The notes under the pieces: generated by a model | What the model saw: the letters and a program-made list of their open reading frames with translations, nothing else | What the model was told of the DNA's origin: nothing | Database searches by the model: none | Program-made: the position numbers and the translations under genes | NCBI GenBank assembly: GCA_023150805.1 | Contig: JAKLKF010000009.1 | Span: 1 to 64,000, forward strand | DNA from: Myxococcota bacterium | GTDB lineage: Bacteria > Myxococcota_A > UBA796 > UBA2385 | Direction of reading: 5' to 3' | DNA: 64,000 nt | Shown here: positions 10,661-20,181 of the stretch, in pieces | How positions within the stretch are numbered: the stretch's first letter is position 1 | Layout of the letters: every line of letters starts with the position of its first letter

Positions 10661-11680
10661 TCAATCGGCCGTCGCGGGCGAAGGAGCGGCCAGCGCCGGA
10701 TCTTCCAGGTAGGCCGGGTCGGTCAGCGCCTCGAGGAAGGCGACGATGTCGGCAGCTTCCTGGGCGGTGAACTGGTAGCCGCCAGCGGGCAGCCGCTTGT
10801 CCAGGGTGGGCGAGGAGACGATGCCGGTGCTGTACTGCTCCACCACCTCGGCCAGGGTCGCGAAGCGGTCGTCGTGCATGTAGGGCGCCGTGATCGCGAC
10901 GTTGCGCAGGGTCGGCGTCTTGAAGCGCCCGTCGTCCTCGGCGCGGCCGGTCACCGTCGCGCGGCCCGTGCCGGCGAGGGTGGCCGGGTCGTCCAGGCCG
11001 ATGTTGTGGAAGTCGTTGTCGGTGAAGAGCAGCCCGGCGTGGCAGCCATGACAGGTGCCCTTGGCGCCGTAGTAGAACAGGTACATGCCCCGGCGCTCGG
11101 ACTCGGTCAGGGCGTTGAGCGTGCCGGCGACGTGGTCGTCGAAGGGGGAGCCGGCCGACACCATCGTCCGCTGGAACTGGGCCATCGCCATGGCGGCCTT
11201 CTCCAGCGTCACCTCGGTGCTGCCGAAGGCCTGCAGGAACATGCCCTCCAGGTCGGGCTCGCGCAGCTGGGTCACGTCGGACTCGAAGAAGTCGACGAGC
11301 TCCAGGTACATCACGTCTTCCAGCGTGCCGGCGTAGCCGCCCGCCCACAGGAAGTTCGAGGCCCAGCCGAGGTTGACGTGGGGGAGGATCCCCAGCACCT
11401 CGGGGTTGCCGAAGGAGTAGGCCTGCAGGTGGCAGTCGGCGCAGGCCCGGCTGCGGTCCGGCGAGGTCCGACGGTCGTAGTACAGGGTCCGGCCCAGGGC
11501 GACGCCCTGCACCGTGGTCGGGTTGTCCTCGGGCACCACGAGCTCGGGGAAGCTGTCGGGCAGCGAGACCTCGAGAGGGGTCGGCGGCTGGACGTCGCCC
11601 TTCTCCGCGGGCGCCTGGCAGCCCACCCCGAGCGCCCCGCTGGCGACGAGGGAGAGGGAGCTGGAATTCCACGGACGCAT
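10661..11680 (-). CDS. di-haem cytochrome c peroxidase (MauG/CcpA family) lipoprotein
   Basis: The 339-residue protein starts at ATG 11680. An N-terminal lipoprotein signal ends in GALGVGC. Two c-type haem sites are present, CADCH at about residue 75 and CHGCH at about residue 200, along with the family's LGRTLYYDRRTS, FKTPTLRNVA, and PYMHDDR stretches, the last giving the distal Met of the electron-transfer haem. Members reduce hydrogen peroxide with electrons from small cytochromes in the periplasm; MauG-like relatives oxidise proteins. A -10-like TATCTT ends only six bases before the ATG, so the transcript may be leaderless. Confidence 0.92.
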   Translation of the reverse strand: MRPWNSSSLSLVASGALGVGCQAPAEKGDVQPPTPLEVSLPDSFPELVVPEDNPTTVQGVALGRTLYYDRRTSPDRSRACADCHLQAYSFGNPEVLGILPHVNLGWASNFLWAGGYAGTLEDVMYLELVDFFESDVTQLREPDLEGMFLQAFGSTEVTLEKAAMAMAQFQRTMVSAGSPFDDHVAGTLNALTESERRGMYLFYYGAKGTCHGCHAGLLFTDNDFHNIGLDDPATLAGTGRATVTGRAEDDGRFKTPTLRNVAITAPYMHDDRFATLAEVVEQYSTGIVSSPTLDKRLPAGGYQFTAQEAADIVAFLEALTDPAYLEDPALAAPSPATAD

Positions 11681-11686
11681 GGTGGG

Positions 11687-11692
11687 AAGATA
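11687..11692 (-). promoter_or_regulatory. possible -10 element of the cytochrome c peroxidase gene
   Basis: TATCTT on the minus strand ends six bases before ATG 11680. It is one of several TAnnnT hexamers placed close to starts in this window, and the distance would give an almost leaderless transcript. No convincing -35 element is visible. Confidence 0.35.
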
Positions 11693-11783
11693 ACCGTCGT
11701 GCGCGGCGTTCGCTGTCAGCGGTCCGCTGCCGGGGTGCGATTCCCCGGCCCGCTGCGGCAGGCTGCTCTTCGTGGAGGTTCCG

Positions 11784-13274
11784 ATGCGCCTGTGGCCTGC
11801 CCTGCTCTCCTGCACCCTGTTCGCGTTGGCCTGTGGCGGCACCAAGACCGTGCAGGGGGACGACGTGCAGGGCGACGCCACCGCCCCGCGGGGCAAGGCC
11901 GAGGGCAAGGCGCCGCGGGTGGAGCCCCCGGCCGGGGGCGGCGCGCCCAGGGGGCAGGCCGACGCCGACGCGCCGGCCACGCCGGGCACGTCGTCGGCGG
12001 GTAGCGCCGGGGACGACGCCATCGTGTCGGTGAGCCTGCCGCTGGGCAGCGCCGCCACCAGCATGCGCACCACCGGCCGCGGCGGCGCGGTCACGCCGGA
12101 CTCGGCGCCGCCCGGCGGTGGCCCTCCGCCCGGCGCCGGCGCCCCTCCGCGCGGCAAGGCGGGCAAGGCCGGCGGCGGTCCGCCTCCCCAGGGGGGCGGG
12201 GGGCCGCCGCCCGGGGCGGGGGGGGGATCCGCCGGCGCGGGCGCCAGCAACCCGGTCAGCGCGGCCTTCAACAACGCCAACGTGCTCGCCCGCACCGCGG
12301 ACGGCACGGTGCACATGCTCTTCGCGATGAACGGCGAGGTCCGCTACCGCCGCAAGGGCCCGGACGGCAGCACCAAGGAGACGACCTTCGGCACCTCGCG
12401 GGCGCCCGCCCTGGCCACCGACGGGGAGAGCACCGTCCTGGTCGTCTGGTCCGACGCCTCGGGGCTGATGGCGGCGATGAGCAGCGACGGTGGCAAGACC
12501 TTCGGCAAGTCCGCGACCATCGCCGCGGGCCGCGGCCAGAACCCGGCCGCGCACCTGTGGCGGGAGGGGGGCAAGCTCAAGGGCGCCGTGGTCTGGCACG
12601 AGGACGTGGGGCCCGGCAGCGGGGGCCGCGGAGCCGCCAAGGGCGTCTTCGGCCTGACCATGGACGAGGGGCGCTTCTCCGCGCCGACCCGCCTGGACGG
12701 GTCGGCGGTCGAGGCCGCCTTCGCCACCGTGCACGGCGGCCCCCAGGGGGTCGTGGTCCTGTGGCGGGAGCGCCAGACCCAGGGCGGCGAGCGGTCGATC
12801 TACCTGAGCGAGCTGCAGGCCGGGCGCTTCGGCAAGGGCCGCCGGCTGGCCAGCGGCCTGGACCCCTCGGCCTGCGTCGACGGCAAGGGCAACGTCCACG
12901 TCGGCTACCAGAACGAGTACAAGGAGACCTGGTACATGCGGTCGGAGGACGGGGGGCGGACCTTCAGCAGCCCCATGCAGCTCGACCACGCCGGGCTCTT
13001 CGTCCGGGTGGCCTGCAACGCCGACGGGCAGGTCGCGCTGGCCTGGGAGCACTTCAACGATCCCCAGGCCTCCTTCGCCGACGACAGCAGCAAGGGCCTG
13101 GGCCTGGCCAGCTCGCTGGACGGCGGGCGGACCTGGCGGGTGCACGATCCCACCGGCGGCGAGACCGGCCTGGCGCTCACGACCTGCGCCCTGGACGACG
13201 ACGGCCGCATGGACCTGCTGTGGGTCCGGGACGGCCGCGAGGTGGTGACCTACAGCACCGACCTGGACGACTGA
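11784..13274 (+). CDS. lipoprotein with BNR (sialidase-type Asp-box) repeats
   Basis: The 496-residue protein starts at ATG 11784, five bases after GGAGG; GTG 11772 overlaps that site and is unlikely. The N-terminus is a lipoprotein signal (LLSCTLFALAC). Residues 20-150 are an extreme Gly/Pro/Ala/Lys linker of low complexity. After that, Asp-box motifs of the SxDxGxT(F/W) type recur (SSDGGKTFG, SEDGGRTFSS, SLDGGRTWRV), which is the beta-propeller pattern of sialidase-like proteins. The catalytic Arg triad and Tyr/Glu of sialidases are not evident, so a binding or structural propeller is more likely than an enzyme. It is divergent from the cytochrome c peroxidase gene across 103 bases. Confidence 0.85.
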   Translation: MRLWPALLSCTLFALACGGTKTVQGDDVQGDATAPRGKAEGKAPRVEPPAGGGAPRGQADADAPATPGTSSAGSAGDDAIVSVSLPLGSAATSMRTTGRGGAVTPDSAPPGGGPPPGAGAPPRGKAGKAGGGPPPQGGGGPPPGAGGGSAGAGASNPVSAAFNNANVLARTADGTVHMLFAMNGEVRYRRKGPDGSTKETTFGTSRAPALATDGESTVLVVWSDASGLMAAMSSDGGKTFGKSATIAAGRGQNPAAHLWREGGKLKGAVVWHEDVGPGSGGRGAAKGVFGLTMDEGRFSAPTRLDGSAVEAAFATVHGGPQGVVVLWRERQTQGGERSIYLSELQAGRFGKGRRLASGLDPSACVDGKGNVHVGYQNEYKETWYMRSEDGGRTFSSPMQLDHAGLFVRVACNADGQVALAWEHFNDPQASFADDSSKGLGLASSLDGGRTWRVHDPTGGETGLALTTCALDDDGRMDLLWVRDGREVVTYSTDLDD

Positions 13275-13307: not shown

Positions 13308-16300
13308 TCAGTTCGCGACCACCGCCTCCAGCTCGTGCACGTCGACCGCCTCGTTGCCGGCCAGGTCGCGGGCGCGGAGCTCGATGGTGTGCGGTCCCTC
13401 CTCGAAGCCGGGGAAGAGCACGTCGGCGGCCCACTGCGGCGCGTCGATCTCCGGCCACTGCCCGATGAGCGCCCCGTCGACGGTGAGCGTGGCGCTGTCG
13501 ATCCAGCGGTCGTCCAGCACGTTCATGGCGATGGACAGCTCGGTGCCGACCTTGACCTCGGCCTCGACGGGGCGGGTGAGGCGGACGGCGGGCGCCAGGT
13601 CGTCGCCCAGGGCGGCGTTGACGTGGGCGATGCGCCACTCCCGCAGCGGCGCACCCTCCGCGTCCCAGCCCTCGGCCAGCACCTCGTGCGCGCCGGGGTC
13701 AGTGGCCGACCAGGTCGCCGAGACCATCGTGGCGTCCTCGACCGCCAGCAGCTCGCCGTCGACGACGAGCGCGATCCGGGCGAGGTCCCCGGTCGCGGTG
13801 AGCTGGACGTCGCCGTAGAGGTTGTCCGGATCCAGCGGCTGGCCGTCGACGGGGTCCTGGAAGCGCAGGTTCAGCGTGGGCGGGGGCTCCGGGGCCGAGG
13901 CGCAGCCGGCCAGGCTCCCGAAGAGCAGGGCAAGCCCGGCCAGGTGCCGTCGCCGTGCGCCGCCCCGCGGGCCCCGGCGCTGGCGCGCCACGGCCAGGAG
14001 CAGGGCCGACCCCAGGAGGGCCAGGCCGGCGCGGCCCCGGCCGGTCGGCGACGTGGTGCAGCCACCGCCGCCGTCGCAGGCGTCCTCGTCGGTGTCGCCG
14101 TCGCAGTCGTTGTCCAGGCCGTCGCAGGCCTCGGGCGCGCCCGGCGCCCGGCGGGGATCGGCGTCGTCGCAGTCCTCGGTGGCCGGGCTGCCGTCCCCGT
14201 CCAGGTCCAGCGCCCCGTCTTCGCTGTCGTCGGCGAGGGGGGGCAACGCGCCGTCCAGCACCTGTTGCCCGTCGAGGACCAGCGCCACGCCTTGCAGGGG
14301 GAAGGTGTCGGTGGCCGCGTTGGCGATGATCCCCACGTCGGGGACGCCGTCGGCCTCCAGGATGCCGTCCTCCAGCCAGCCGACCCAGGCGCCCAGGCCA
14401 TCGGCCCCCCCCAGCACGTGCAGGGGCTGGAGCTGGTCGTCGAGCACCTGGACCTGGTCGCCGTAGGGGGCGCCGACGAGCAGCGCCTCGCCCCAGGCCA
14501 GCGCGTAGCCGAAGCCGCTGGCCTCGGGGCCGCCTGCGCTGGCGACGGCCACCTCGTCGATGTCCACCGCGCCGGCGGGGACCCCCTCCACCTTCCAGAT
14601 CCGCCCCGCGCCCTGGTCGGCCCAGGGGCTCGAGATCACCAGGCTCCCGCCGTCGGGCGCCGCGTCCATCGCGTAGCCCAGGGTCGCCTCGGTGCGGCTG
14701 GTGATCCAGGATCCGTCGGCGTCGTCCGTGGAGCGCGAGGAGTCCCCCGAGGGGAAGGGCCCCAGGAAGACGTGGACCGCGCCCTCCAGGTCGGGCTGCA
14801 GGGAGCCGATCACCAGGTCCTCGATCCCGTCGCCGTCCAGGTCGCCCGGGGTCAGGACCCGCCAGCCGAACCAGGTCGACTCGTCGTCGTCCCAGGCCGT
14901 GAGCGCGCCGGTGGCCACGCTCGCCGCGCTGTCCAGCGCGTCCGGACTGCAGCTCTCCCGCTGGGCGATGGGCAGGGACTGGCCGCCGGTGGACTCGCGC
15001 CCCGCCAGCCCGCCGTGGACCAGGTACACGACGCCGGACATCCGCCGCGGCTCGACCCAGTCCTCCTCGGGGCAGGTGGGGGGGCGGGCGGGGAAGTCGC
15101 GCCGCCAGGCCAGCGAGGGGGCGCTCACGACCAGGTCGAGCTGGCCGTCCTGGTCCAGGTCGGCGCCGTGGTCCATGATCGCGCCGAAGGAGTCGCCGTT
15201 GCGCTCGCCGGACAGCATCAGGGCCGCCTGGTCGGTGGTCGCGGCCCAGCCCAGCCGCCCCAGGTCCCGGAAGACCGCCAGCTCGCCCTTCTCGGTCTGG
15301 TCCAGGCCGGTGTGGTCGATGCCCACGTAGAGCGCCCGGGTCGGCTCGCCCTCGTCGACGACGGCGACCGATGCGCCGAAGTTGACGTTCTCGGTCGCGC
15401 CGAACAGCGTGAGCGGCGCGTGGCCCAGCCACAGGTCCTCCGGCAGGGACGCGGCGTGGACGATCTGCACCTCGCCCGGCGAGTAGCTGCTCTGGATGCC
15501 GAAGCGGTTGGCGATGGCCAGGTCCGTGCCGTCCGGGTCCGTCAGGGCGCCGGTCAGCACCGGACCCACCAGCCGCTCCTCGGGGTCCGAGCCCCACAGG
15601 CGGTGCTCCGCGCCCTGCAGGGCGTCCAGCGCCTGGGCGTGGGCCGGCGAGGGCGCGGCGACCAGGCCCAGGGCAAGCGTGGCCCCACCCAGGACGGCCC
15701 CCCCGCGGCGGGCTCGGCGGCGGAGCGCCAGCAGGGCCAGCGCCACCGGGGCCCAGCCCGCGGCGCCGATCCCGCCGCAGCCACCGCAGCCCTCGTCCAC
15801 CGGGGCATCGTCCGCCAGCGGGGGCCCGCAGTCCTCGTCGACCTGCCCGTCGCAGTCGTCGTCCACGCCGTCGCCGCAGACCTCGATGGCGCCGGCGTTC
15901 ACCCAGGCGGCCAGGTCGTCGCAGTCCTGGTCGACGGTGTAGCCGTCCCCGTCCTGGTCGGTGCCGGCAGAGTAGTCGCCATGGGTGCAGGTGGCGTCCA
16001 GCGCCGCCTGGTCCTGGGGTCCCACGATGGCGATCACGCCGTCCAGCTCGGCGTGGACCGAGGCGAAGGGCGCGGTGATAGCCACCAGCCGCTCGCCGTC
16101 CACCACGGCGGAGTGCAGGGCGTGGCCGACCTGGCCGCCGGTCCAGCAGCCGTCGATCCGCCCCAGGTGGTCGGTGCTGCCGTCGACCTCTCCCTCGACC
16201 GCTTCGAACAGGAAGGCCGAGCCGAAGCCCGACACCGCGCCCGGCGCGCCCACCGCGAAGGCGGCGCCGTCGAAGAGCCCCTCGGCGTCGGCCACGCCGT

Positions 16301-17435
16301 GGCCGAACAGGGACCAGGGAGGCCCGGTCAGCGTGGCGCTCGCGCGCTCGCTGGTGGTGGAGGTGCCGGCCTGGTCCAGGTCCGAGAGCAGGAAGGCCCG
16401 GCCGGCGGCGTTGGCCGCCTCGGGCGCGGTGCCCAGGACGCGGCCGTCGGACAGGGTGAGCAACTGCCAGGGGAAGCTGTCGCCGGGCTCGTCGCCTCGC
16501 AGCTCGGCCAGGGCCTCGCCGGTCTCGCGGAAGCGCCGGGAGACGTCGCCCTGGATGGGCGCGCTCTGGATGGGGAAGGCCGCCCCGGAGCTGCGCCCCA
16601 GCTTGTCGAACTGGCCGGGGCTGGCGTAGCCGGGGACCCCCAGGATCATCTCCTCGCGGCCGTCTCCGTCGATGTCGGGGATGGTCGTCGCCGACCGCCC
16701 GGCCAGGGACCCGACCTCGTCGTGGATCCAGACCGCGTGCAGCCCGACGACGTTGCGGCTGGCGGGGTTGGGCGAGAAGCTGACCAGGATCGACGCCTCC
16801 TCGAAGCCGCGCGGCAGGGTCTCGACCAGCCCGACCCAGCCGCGGTCCAACGAGCCCGACGGGGTCGGGGCGGGCGCGGCGATCAGCAGGTCGACGCGCC
16901 CGTCGTCGTTGAGATCGGGTGCCCCGTAGACGCGCATCCCCAGCCGCCCGTACTCGGTCCCGCCCACCAGGCGATCCACGCCGTTCCAGGCCTGGGGATC
17001 CAGCACCTGGGCCGTGCCGGCCACCTGGGTGCCGCCGTAGACGATGAAGACGGACCCGCTCGAGCTGGCCTGGTCGCTGCGATGGGGCGCGCCGGCGGCG
17101 AAGTCGTCGTAGCCGTCCCCGTCCAGGTCGCCGGGGGCGGCCAGCGCGTAGCCCACGTTGCCCTGGGGCTCGTCCCCCACCAGGAAGGCGTCGGTGGCGT
17201 CGTCCAGCGGCGTCAGGGGCGCCAGCGCGCGCGGGTCCGGGATCCAGGCCACCATGCCCGCCTCGTGGCCACCGCGGTCCGCCCAGGGGAAGCCGACGGT
17301 CAGCTCCTCGATGCCGTCACCGTCCAGGTCGGTGACCAGGGGTGCCCAGGGGCCCGAGCCTGGGTCTCCGACGACGGAGGGCAGCCCGTCGATCGCCCCG
17401 GCGTAGGCCAGCGGCAGCAGCCAGGGCAGGATCAT
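13308..17435 (-). CDS. FG-GAP propeller frame reading as three exported proteins in one (polyprotein-like)
   Basis: One open frame of 1375 codons starts at ATG 17435, overlapping the upstream stop as ATGA. Residues 1-549 carry a signal peptide (MILPWLLPLAYAGA) and FG-GAP repeats with D-x-DGDG calcium loops, ending in a MopE-like Cys/Asp motif and a MYXO-CTERM-like tail. Residues 601-1125 repeat this plan with new FG-GAP units, a second MopE-like motif and a second MYXO-CTERM-like tail. Residues 1178-1375 begin at a lipobox Cys and form Ig-like domains. At both joints a hydrophobic tail, an Arg-rich loop and a new signal-like segment follow without a stop. It may be a true polyprotein or three genes whose stops were lost. 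In-frame GTG codons at 15746 and 13991 could start the later parts. Confidence 0.8.
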   Translation of the reverse strand: MILPWLLPLAYAGAIDGLPSVVGDPGSGPWAPLVTDLDGDGIEELTVGFPWADRGGHEAGMVAWIPDPRALAPLTPLDDATDAFLVGDEPQGNVGYALAAPGDLDGDGYDDFAAGAPHRSDQASSSGSVFIVYGGTQVAGTAQVLDPQAWNGVDRLVGGTEYGRLGMRVYGAPDLNDDGRVDLLIAAPAPTPSGSLDRGWVGLVETLPRGFEEASILVSFSPNPASRNVVGLHAVWIHDEVGSLAGRSATTIPDIDGDGREEMILGVPGYASPGQFDKLGRSSGAAFPIQSAPIQGDVSRRFRETGEALAELRGDEPGDSFPWQLLTLSDGRVLGTAPEAANAAGRAFLLSDLDQAGTSTTSERASATLTGPPWSLFGHGVADAEGLFDGAAFAVGAPGAVSGFGSAFLFEAVEGEVDGSTDHLGRIDGCWTGGQVGHALHSAVVDGERLVAITAPFASVHAELDGVIAIVGPQDQAALDATCTHGDYSAGTDQDGDGYTVDQDCDDLAAWVNAGAIEVCGDGVDDDCDGQVDEDCGPPLADDAPVDEGCGGCGGIGAAGWAPVALALLALRRRARRGGAVLGGATLALGLVAAPSPAHAQALDALQGAEHRLWGSDPEERLVGPVLTGALTDPDGTDLAIANRFGIQSSYSPGEVQIVHAASLPEDLWLGHAPLTLFGATENVNFGASVAVVDEGEPTRALYVGIDHTGLDQTEKGELAVFRDLGRLGWAATTDQAALMLSGERNGDSFGAIMDHGADLDQDGQLDLVVSAPSLAWRRDFPARPPTCPEEDWVEPRRMSGVVYLVHGGLAGRESTGGQSLPIAQRESCSPDALDSAASVATGALTAWDDDESTWFGWRVLTPGDLDGDGIEDLVIGSLQPDLEGAVHVFLGPFPSGDSSRSTDDADGSWITSRTEATLGYAMDAAPDGGSLVISSPWADQGAGRIWKVEGVPAGAVDIDEVAVASAGGPEASGFGYALAWGEALLVGAPYGDQVQVLDDQLQPLHVLGGADGLGAWVGWLEDGILEADGVPDVGIIANAATDTFPLQGVALVLDGQQVLDGALPPLADDSEDGALDLDGDGSPATEDCDDADPRRAPGAPEACDGLDNDCDGDTDEDACDGGGGCTTSPTGRGRAGLALLGSALLLAVARQRRGPRGGARRRHLAGLALLFGSLAGCASAPEPPPTLNLRFQDPVDGQPLDPDNLYGDVQLTATGDLARIALVVDGELLAVEDATMVSATWSATDPGAHEVLAEGWDAEGAPLREWRIAHVNAALGDDLAPAVRLTRPVEAEVKVGTELSIAMNVLDDRWIDSATLTVDGALIGQWPEIDAPQWAADVLFPGFEEGPHTIELRARDLAGNEAVDVHELEAVVAN
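13902..14060 (-). other. joint 2 of the FG-GAP frame: MYXO-CTERM-like tail followed by lipoprotein signal
   Basis: Residues 1126-1178 of the long frame read Cys-Thr-Thr, a hydrophobic helix (AGLALLGSALLLAV), an Arg-rich stretch (RQRRGPRGGARRR), a second hydrophobic helix (LAGLALLFGS) and a lipobox LAGC. The first half is what ends a myxobacterial surface protein; the second half is what starts a lipoprotein. An in-frame GTG lies at 13991. Confidence 0.7.
15636..15788 (-). other. joint 1 of the FG-GAP frame: MYXO-CTERM-like tail followed by signal peptide
   Basis: Residues 550-600 of the long frame read CGGCGG, a hydrophobic helix (APVALALLAL), RRRARRG, a second hydrophobic helix (AVLGGATLALGLVA) and a signal-peptidase-I-like end (PSPAHA before QA). 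Again a C-terminal sorting tail runs straight into an export signal. An in-frame GTG lies at 15746. Confidence 0.7.
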
Positions 17436-19738
17436 CGGATGGTGACCGTGCCCGCCATGCAGCGGTAGGGCCCGTCCGTGCGATGGTGGAAGCGCTGCGT
17501 CTCGAGCACGTAGTCGCCGTTGGAGCCCGAGCCCGAGTGCATGTGACAGATGTAGTGGTAGACCCCGGGCTGGTTGAAGGTCCAGGTCGCGTAGGCGCCG
17601 CCCACCAGCTCGTGGAAGGGGCTCAGCGCGGCGCCCGAGGGGTCCAGCAGCTGCACGTCGTGCAGCTCGTTCTGCAGGTTCCCGTTGTTGACGGAGTCGT
17701 TCCACCAGGTGACCACGGTGCCCTGGTCGACCACGATGTGGGATGGCGTGAACACACTCGCGCCGCGAGGCATGGTCACCGAGGCCTGCGGCAGCGCCAT
17801 GTAGAAGGCCGAGGGCAGGCTGAGCGCCTCCTTGCCGTCGTCGGAGGCCAGTGCGACCCGCCACACCAGGGGCCGGGTGCCGTCGGAGATCCCCCGGAGG
17901 GCGTCGAGGGTGTCCCCACAGACCTCCAGGCTGCCGCCCGTGACCGGGCCCAGGTCGATGCGCTCGGTCACCCCGAAGGTCCCGTCGCCGGACACCTGCA
18001 CGACGGCGCTGGCGTCGACGTCCCCCTGCCAGGTGAACTCGAAGCAGTCGGTCACCACGCCGTAGGCTTCGGGCGCGGTCGTGACCACGGCCAGCCCGCC
18101 CCGCTGCCCCACCGCGCAGCCGTCGCCGTCCGTGAGGCGTCCGACGCGGGTGCCCGGGCACTGGTCCCAGTCGTCGGGGACCCCGTCGAAGTCCTCGTCC
18201 TGCCAGTCGACCGGCTCCTCGACCACCAGGACCTGGTCGGCGGGGACCGCGTCGAGCTCCACCACGGCGCCGTTGGTGAAGGTGACCCGGACCAGCTCGG
18301 CCTCGTCGTGGGGGCCCAGGCCGACGATGGTGGCGTCGGTCCCCTGGGACTGGAAGTTCGACCAGCTCCCGACCGACCGCGTCACCGTCCCGCCGGCCGT
18401 GACGACCTCGATGCGGGCGCCGATGGCCGAGCGGTTGTGCGTCAGGCCGATCGGGCGCACGCCCAGCCAGTGGTTCTCGGCCGGGCCGTTGTACCGGAAC
18501 AGGTGGTCGTCGTTGGGGCGGCGGCTGAGCCCGCTGGAGATGTAGACCTCGGGGTAGCCGTCCTGGGTCAGGTCGGAGGCGGCGACCGACCAGCTCAGCA
18601 GGTCCGAGGCCCGGATCCCGGCGCCGTCGCAGGCCCGGTGGAAGTCCATCCCGCCCTGGTTGACGAAGACGTGCGGCTCGAAGACTAAGCCGGACATGAC
18701 GATGTCCAGCAGGCCGTCATTGTCCAGGTCCACCAGCGCCAGGCCGTGGGGGTCGATCCGATCCCGGAGCGCCGCCTCGCTCTCGTCGTCGGCGCCCAGG
18801 CTGAGCCCGACGTCGACGAAGAAGCCGTCGAGGTTCTCCAGCACCAGGTTGCCGCTGTACATGTAGTCGTGGGTCATCACGACGATGTCGGAGTCGCCGT
18901 CATTGTCCAGGTCGCCGCAGGCGGCCCCGAAGCTGAAGCGCCGGAGCGGGTCGACCAGGCCGCGCTCGATCGCCTCGTCGCGGTAGGTGCCGTCCCCCTG
19001 GCTGACGAAGAGCTGGTTGTGGTGGCCGCGGCCGTTGGTCTGGAAGATGTCGGGGAGCTGGTCACCGTTCACGTCGAGCAGGCAGACGCCTTCGCCCGAG
19101 GTCGAGCTGTCGATGCCCGACTCGGCCGTGACGTCGCGGAAGCTCCCGTCCCGCTGGTTGCGCAGCAGCACGCTGGCCCCGGAGCCGTCCTCGGGCCCGT
19201 TGCTGAAGAAGACGTCCAGCCAGCCGTCGCCGTCGGCGTCCAGCAGCAGGCCCTGGTGGCCCCAGCCCGGGTGCGCCGCGGCGCCGCCCCAGGCGGTCAC
19301 GTCTTCGTACCAGGTCCAGCCTTCGTTCCGGTAGAGCACGTTGTGACCGTTCACGGTCATGTAGATGTCGGGCAGGCCGTCCCCGTCGAGGTCCCCCCGC
19401 AGCGGCGCCCGGTCCTCGCACAGGCTGTCCAGCCCCATCTGCTGGCCGGACTCGACGTAGCTGCCGTCGGGCTGCTGGATGAAGAGCAGGTTCTCGCCGG
19501 AGTAGTAGCCGGCGCCCTCGATCCGGGCGGGCCCCATCGCCAGCAGGATGTCGGTGCGCCCGTCGCCGTCGAAGTCGTTGAGGTTGACGCCCTTGGAGCT
19601 CCCGAAGCCGCGGACGCCCACCTCGTCGCCGATGTCCACGTACCACTCGCCGTGGTCCCAGCACTCGCCGTTGGAGTCCTTGGACAGCTCCTGGGCCTGC
19701 GCGAGCCCGGTGGCGACGAGGAGCAGCGCCGTGATCAT
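17432..19738 (-). CDS. VCBS/FG-GAP and ASPIC-UnbV protein with C-terminal cupredoxin
   Basis: The 768-residue exported protein starts at ATG 19738 with signal peptide MITALLLVATGLAQA. Residues 30-400 hold repeated propeller units with DxDGDGxxD loops (for example DFDGDGRTDI and DLDGDGLPDI). An ASPIC/UnbV domain follows (NHWLGVRPIG, then RSAIGARIEV, IVGLG and VRVTFTNGAVVE). Next comes a thrombospondin type 3-like calcium motif (DEDFDGVPDDWDQCPG). The last 120 residues look like a plastocyanin-type copper domain: ELHDV for the first His and HYICHMHSG for Cys, His and a possible axial ligand. It sits between two coupled genes in one operon and is probably a cell-surface, calcium- and copper-binding protein. 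Confidence 0.88.
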   Translation of the reverse strand: MITALLLVATGLAQAQELSKDSNGECWDHGEWYVDIGDEVGVRGFGSSKGVNLNDFDGDGRTDILLAMGPARIEGAGYYSGENLLFIQQPDGSYVESGQQMGLDSLCEDRAPLRGDLDGDGLPDIYMTVNGHNVLYRNEGWTWYEDVTAWGGAAAHPGWGHQGLLLDADGDGWLDVFFSNGPEDGSGASVLLRNQRDGSFRDVTAESGIDSSTSGEGVCLLDVNGDQLPDIFQTNGRGHHNQLFVSQGDGTYRDEAIERGLVDPLRRFSFGAACGDLDNDGDSDIVVMTHDYMYSGNLVLENLDGFFVDVGLSLGADDESEAALRDRIDPHGLALVDLDNDGLLDIVMSGLVFEPHVFVNQGGMDFHRACDGAGIRASDLLSWSVAASDLTQDGYPEVYISSGLSRRPNDDHLFRYNGPAENHWLGVRPIGLTHNRSAIGARIEVVTAGGTVTRSVGSWSNFQSQGTDATIVGLGPHDEAELVRVTFTNGAVVELDAVPADQVLVVEEPVDWQDEDFDGVPDDWDQCPGTRVGRLTDGDGCAVGQRGGLAVVTTAPEAYGVVTDCFEFTWQGDVDASAVVQVSGDGTFGVTERIDLGPVTGGSLEVCGDTLDALRGISDGTRPLVWRVALASDDGKEALSLPSAFYMALPQASVTMPRGASVFTPSHIVVDQGTVVTWWNDSVNNGNLQNELHDVQLLDPSGAALSPFHELVGGAYATWTFNQPGVYHYICHMHSGSGSNGDYVLETQRFHHRTDGPYRCMAGTVTIR

Positions 19739-20181
19739 GGCAGGTACCGAGGTTCCGAGGAGGCGACGCGCGAGTTGCCCGGCATTCCCCCCTGCACGCG
19801 CCACCACCGCCCGCCAGGGACCACGGTGGCCGTGTGGAAGGAGGTCCGCACGGCGGTCTGGGTCCGTCCGGCCAGGAAGTCGGCGTCCGGCGAGAACTGC
19901 AGCAGCCAGGTCTGGCAGGTGCCCGACCAGGAGAAGACCATCGCCTCGGCCCCCGGCGCCTGGGGAGTGGGATCGTACAGGTTCACCTGGCATCCGGCCA
20001 TCTGCTGCTCCGTGCAGCCGACCGCGTCCTTGGGCGCCGGGTCGCTGTCGGGGCACTGGTCCAGCGTGTCGGGGACGCCGTCGCAGTCCTGGTCACCAGG
20101 ACGCTCCGCGCAGGGGACGGGATCCAGGCTGTCCTGCGGGGTGGAGCAGGACAGGAACGTCAGGAGCGAGAGGAGATACAC
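19735..20181 (-). CDS. small lipoprotein with thrombospondin type 3-like calcium motif
   Basis: The 148-residue product starts at GTG 20181, directly at a lipoprotein signal (VYLLSLLTFLSC). A calcium-type motif follows (DQDCDGVPDTLDQCP, with paired Cys), then a domain of about 90 residues with FSWSGTC and WWRVQ that is similar in tone to the linker domain of the next protein (FEFTWQGDV, VWRVAL). Its stop overlaps the start of the VCBS gene as ATGA, making it the first gene of the three-gene surface operon. The start is weakly supported: there is no clear ribosome site, but earlier in-frame codons would destroy the signal. Confidence 0.72.
   Translation of the reverse strand: MYLLSLLTFLSCSTPQDSLDPVPCAERPGDQDCDGVPDTLDQCPDSDPAPKDAVGCTEQQMAGCQVNLYDPTPQAPGAEAMVFSWSGTCQTWLLQFSPDADFLAGRTQTAVRTSFHTATVVPGGRWWRVQGGMPGNSRVASSEPRYLP

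Follow-up and report, generated by a model that had tools for sequence, protein, structure and literature searches.

The window (the whole 64,000-nucleotide stretch of DNA that was analysed, from a Myxococcota genome referred to here as G000) carries an open frame of 1375 codons on its minus strand (17435..13308), with an ATG start and a single stop. All coordinates within this frame are given for the minus strand. The encoded chain falls into three parts. A weak and short N-terminal export signal, identified from sequence and hydrophobicity (MILPWLLPLAYAG; 17397..17435), leads into part 1 (15636..17396), which contains FG-GAP repeats (Pfam PF01839), a MopE-type metal-binding motif (PF11617), a first sorting tail and a second signal peptide. 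Part 2 (13905..15635) contains FG-GAP repeats, a MopE-type motif, a second sorting tail and a lipoprotein signal, and part 3 (13311..13904) is a predicted lipoprotein with an Ig-like Big_7 domain (PF17957). PF11617 matched two stretches of the chain, one ahead of each tail; the first (DQDGDG...DEDC) lies at 15828..15959. Parts 1 and 2 share 27% identity (BLASTP, E 1e-9) and, judged by their sequences, are distant paralogues. None of the parts is a barrel, part 3 being of the Big_7 and not the OmpA type. Structure predictions for parts 1 and 2 were discarded (pLDDT about 29 from two-row alignments). A 1377-codon open frame on the plus strand (13335-17468), whose codon-position GC mirrors that of the minus-strand gene, was rejected as a GC-rich shadow.

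The gene immediately upstream (17432..20056, minus strand) encodes FG-GAP, ASPIC/UnbV and plastocyanin-like copper-binding domains, and its stop overlaps the start of the 1375-codon frame in an ATGA. A cytochrome-c-peroxidase-like frame, an identity that comes from our own reading of the sequence, lies nearby (10661-12316, minus strand).

Two internal sorting tails, each followed by an export signal

The first-pass annotation had described a single stop-free frame with two MYXO-CTERM-like tails, each running into a new export signal, with a signal-peptidase-I-like site near residue 601 and a lipobox near residue 1178. The frame, the HMM scores and the motifs agree with this description. Tail 1 (15705..15791) consists of GCGGCGG, a helix and RRRARR, and in a genome-wide HMM search scored 14.7 bits at 15705-15782, just below the cut-off of 15.85 for TIGR03382 (GC_trans_RRR). 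The joint model described below matched the surrounding segment with 46.3 bits (15633-15794). Tail 1 is followed by an internal signal peptide (15636..15704) in which residue 600 is the last of the signal-peptidase-I-like site (AHA|Q601). Tail 2 (13974..14066; GGC, helix, RQRR) scored 20.8 bits at 13974-14072 in the genome-wide search, against a cut-off of 20 for the MYXO-CTERM model TIGR03901. It is followed by an internal lipoprotein signal (13902..13973) with the lipobox LAGC at residues 1175-1178 and its cysteine at residue 1178 (LAG|C1178). The signal fits the usual definition of a lipoprotein, a lipobox cysteine behind a hydrophobic stretch and positive residues (ARRRHLAGLALLFGSLAGC). 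Neither tail stands at the C-terminus of the frame; both are internal, and there is no in-frame stop near either joint.

As a control, both MYXO-CTERM models were searched across the G000 genome and each tail was read onward to its stop. About 70 ordinary tails reached a stop after 0-22 codons, with one at 44. Four candidates without a nearby stop (L324, L344, L345 and L354) were judged by eye not to be real tails and were excluded. Run-on joints numbered four, in three genes: the two in the window, one on contig C321 and one on contig C28.

A relative with the same open joints

Among 71 genomes of the class, a full-length relative of the window protein was found in one other genome, Myxococcota isolate MAG.235 (contig JAKLKD010000038.1; G022 below), which belongs to another family of the same order; it was also the sole full-length relative in a search of named-genome contigs. 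The G022 frame is unbroken and has the same three parts and the same two joints, with 39% overall identity to the window chain. The two chains agree exactly in H-A-Q at joint 1 (AxA-Q) and in L-A-G-C-A at joint 2, and in both of them each tail has its cysteine, hydrophobic helix and Arg cluster. The ATGA overlap with the stop of the upstream gene is also present in both, and the ASPIC/UnbV-cupredoxin gene and one gene further upstream keep the same order. A frame similar to the cytochrome-c-peroxidase-like one (30% identity) was seen near the G022 locus (L031:3737-4840).

Two stop codons lost through sequencing or assembly errors would turn three genes into an apparent single frame. The window does come from a MAG, and a run of seven G residues lies at joint 1. 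Nevertheless, third-position GC stays at 0.92-0.94 without interruption across both window joints, the stretch inspected at joint 1 holds no close stop in any frame, and both joints are stop-free in the separately assembled G022 MAG. Because both joints are also open in an independent MAG from another family, the window frame is not an assembly error, and we discount lost stops almost entirely. Three separate genes in relatives would have refuted the single chain proposed in the first-pass annotation. This was not what we found, with the reservation that just one relative of the three-part protein was recovered, so that the conservation of the three-part gene rests on two sequences. If a polyprotein is defined by a single stop-free frame that codes for several mature proteins and is conserved among relatives, the frame shared by the window and G022 satisfies the definition, the cleavage being inferred.

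Two-part fusions with joints of the same type

The run-on gene on C321 (L167:5223-8840, minus strand) encodes a TSP3-repeat protein, a MYXO-CTERM tail, a signal peptide and an OmpA-type protein. This OmpA-type fusion is a single unbroken frame in 26 genomes. The GG[SA]C motif, the helix, the Arg cluster and the second hydrophobic stretch are present in all 26, and an AxA-type site in nearly all. The fused OmpA-type genes match the TraB model partially, with scores far under its cut-off. Additional fusions of the OmpA type, in which the N-terminal part differs (TSP3, DUF11 and MopE motifs), were noted at L242, L247, L248 and L251, with joint matches in families f4 and f9.

The run-on gene on C28 (1977-4334, minus strand; L319 / L264) joins an MXAN_2561-like protein to an MXAN_2562-like barrel. 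MXAN_2561 and MXAN_2562 are two named families (NCBIfam NF045522 and NF040596), the first a MYXO-CTERM protein and the second, which follows it, an outer-membrane barrel; neither is related to the window's FG-GAP chain. The fused frames score under the cut-offs of both families and are therefore distant relatives. The pair is fused in the order of the window's genome and separate in others. We counted 52 fused loci, 51 of them with an AxA-type site, and 7 split loci, found in genus g13 and in family f9 of another order. At the split loci a stop falls just past the tail, and a start and signal peptide usually follow within a few bases. Each part can therefore be its own gene product, and the pair is one gene or two, the joint being the place of the stop. 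A joint model built from these sequences matched both sister fusion families in many genomes.

Besides cutting, the first-pass annotation had offered nested translation starts at internal GTG codons as a source of three products. Each window joint does contain a GTG (at -37 and -29 from the cleavage sites). These internal starts are not conserved between the window and G022, whose joint 2 has no ATG, GTG or TTG at all; the same is true of 6 of the 26 OmpA-type joints, and 2 of the 52 fused MXAN_2561/2562-like joints have no start. A Shine-Dalgarno-like motif was found in none of the 26 OmpA-type joints, and 44 of the 52 MXAN_2561/2562-like joints lack a start bearing one. Moreover, an in-frame start cannot terminate the upstream product, which would keep the remainder of the chain. 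The suggestion of nested starts is thus weak, and we hold it to be very improbable.

The downstream part of both sister fusions is an outer-membrane protein (OmpA/TraB-like or an MXAN_2562-like barrel). Release of this part is argued from the difficulty of inserting a barrel into the outer membrane while it is tethered to inner-membrane helices. No part of the window chain is a barrel, and for this reason an uncut membrane protein cannot be formally excluded there. The chain would then remain a multi-span inner-membrane protein displaying three domains, with the tail and signal pairs as mere hairpins. Its topology would be self-consistent, since hydrophobicity analysis gives four hydrophobic segments with Arg clusters in between. 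Yet the AxA-Q and LAGC motifs, conserved at 39% overall identity, would serve no purpose if the hairpins were left uncut, and the sister fusions carry outer-membrane barrels, one such family occurring as two genes elsewhere. We regard the uncut chain as unlikely, while still a possibility to be kept in mind.

Myxosortase and the proposed processing

Both genomes encode a CPBP protease above the cut-off of 100 for the myxosortase core model NF040914 (119.4 bits in G000, 111.8 bits in G022). Both proteases score below the MrtX, MrtC and MrtP cut-offs. The G000 gene (L167:9665-10750, plus strand) lies one gene from the C321 fusion. MrtX has been shown experimentally to cut MYXO-CTERM tails, also in E. 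coli (PMC11980579). In the same study internal MYXO-CTERM motifs were termed rare and internal processing of MXAN_5598 was proposed; cutting by myxosortase of a MYXO-CTERM tail that is not C-terminal was not demonstrated there (PMC11980579).

That gap leaves room for partial processing, in which 601 and 1178 are processed by the signal peptidases, the tails are left intact by myxosortase, and parts 1 and 2 stay held by a two-helix hairpin. The signal-peptidase sites are of textbook form, and tail 1 falls under its model cut-off. On the other hand, the tail cysteine and Arg cluster are conserved in 26 of 26 OmpA-type fusions and in both three-part chains, and a myxosortase-family gene is present in the genome. 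We consider partial processing improbable.

The joints are unbroken in related bacteria; we therefore read the frame as one chain that is probably cut into separate surface proteins. Specifically, we propose that the product of the window gene is a secreted polyprotein that myxosortase and signal peptidases I and II cleave, a reading to which we assign a probability of roughly 75%, with cleavage inferred. The product of a single ribosome pass would span the membrane four times, in two hairpins. In each, the MYXO-CTERM helix would run from outside to inside, the Arg cluster would be cytoplasmic and the following signal-peptide helix would run from inside to outside. Signal peptidase I would cut after residue 600, and lipoprotein processing by Lgt and LspA would lead to a cut before Cys1178. 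Myxosortase would cut just past the cysteine of each MYXO-CTERM tail, a cysteine for which lipidation has been proposed elsewhere. The outcome would be two lipid-anchored surface proteins, parts 1 and 2, each with FG-GAP repeats and a metal-binding motif, and one Ig-domain lipoprotein, part 3, the three being produced 1:1:1 and released together. Every cleavage, lipidation and localisation in this scheme is inferred, as is any joint role of the parts in metal binding or adhesion; the idea that they are made in equal amounts as a set for metal binding or adhesion at the surface is a guess.

The polyprotein-like reading of the first-pass annotation remains the best supported, and analogous two-part fusions occur as separate genes elsewhere. 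Release of the parts of the window chain rests on analogy with the sister fusions and on the conserved sites, and cleavage has not been shown. Against it stand the absence of proteomics, the short first signal peptide, the score of tail 1 and the unmodelled mature domains.

Discussion

Polyproteins that are cut into separate proteins are common among viruses, and to our knowledge few bacteria cut one chain into separate surface proteins. The FbcH cytochrome b/c1 precursor of Bradyrhizobium is encoded in one frame and yields two proteins through a cut at an internal signal peptide. Unlike the window chain it has no C-terminal sorting tail, consists of two parts and belongs to a respiratory complex. 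Among the papers available to our literature search, none was found that links the term 'polyprotein' with Myxococcota.

The closest published case is MXAN_5598 of Myxococcus xanthus, in which, as in the window gene, one frame runs from an internal MYXO-CTERM tail into a further envelope protein, and whose N-terminal part has been proposed to be processed and anchored (PMC11980579). MXAN_5598 has two parts, an adhesin and an OmpA-type barrel (PMC11980579), whereas the window chain has three parts, two internal tails and a lipoprotein signal on part 3, and no barrel. TraA and TraB of M. xanthus are a MYXO-CTERM surface protein and its partner, an OmpA-domain outer-membrane protein, encoded by overlapping genes (PMC11980579, PMC3325183); they are two separate frames, in contrast to our OmpA-type fusions. 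For one protein, MXAN_5598, a two-part arrangement of the OmpA type has thus already been published. What appears to be new is the chain of three parts, in which two tails are combined with a lipobox and a signal peptidase I site, together with its conservation, the breadth of such fusions and the comparison of fused and split versions.

Cellular bacteria are thought to make each surface protein from a gene of its own. Our findings leave room for the possibility, which on balance we think likely, that an order of Myxococcota routinely makes envelope proteins as polyproteins. Internal myxosortase tags and internal signal peptides of either class would then yield two or three products per chain that differ in their anchoring and are made in a fixed ratio, and in the course of evolution genes would have fused and split at the same joint. 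A conserved chain with a sorting tag in its middle implies that a non-terminal tag must be acceptable to myxosortase, and a signal peptide or lipobox directly after the tag implies that Sec must restart export at an internal signal. For annotation such fused frames are a trap, as they are read as single odd proteins. They are also ready substrates for studying the joint action of myxosortase, signal peptidase I and LspA on one chain, and the existence of fused and split versions of one gene pair makes the question testable by comparison.
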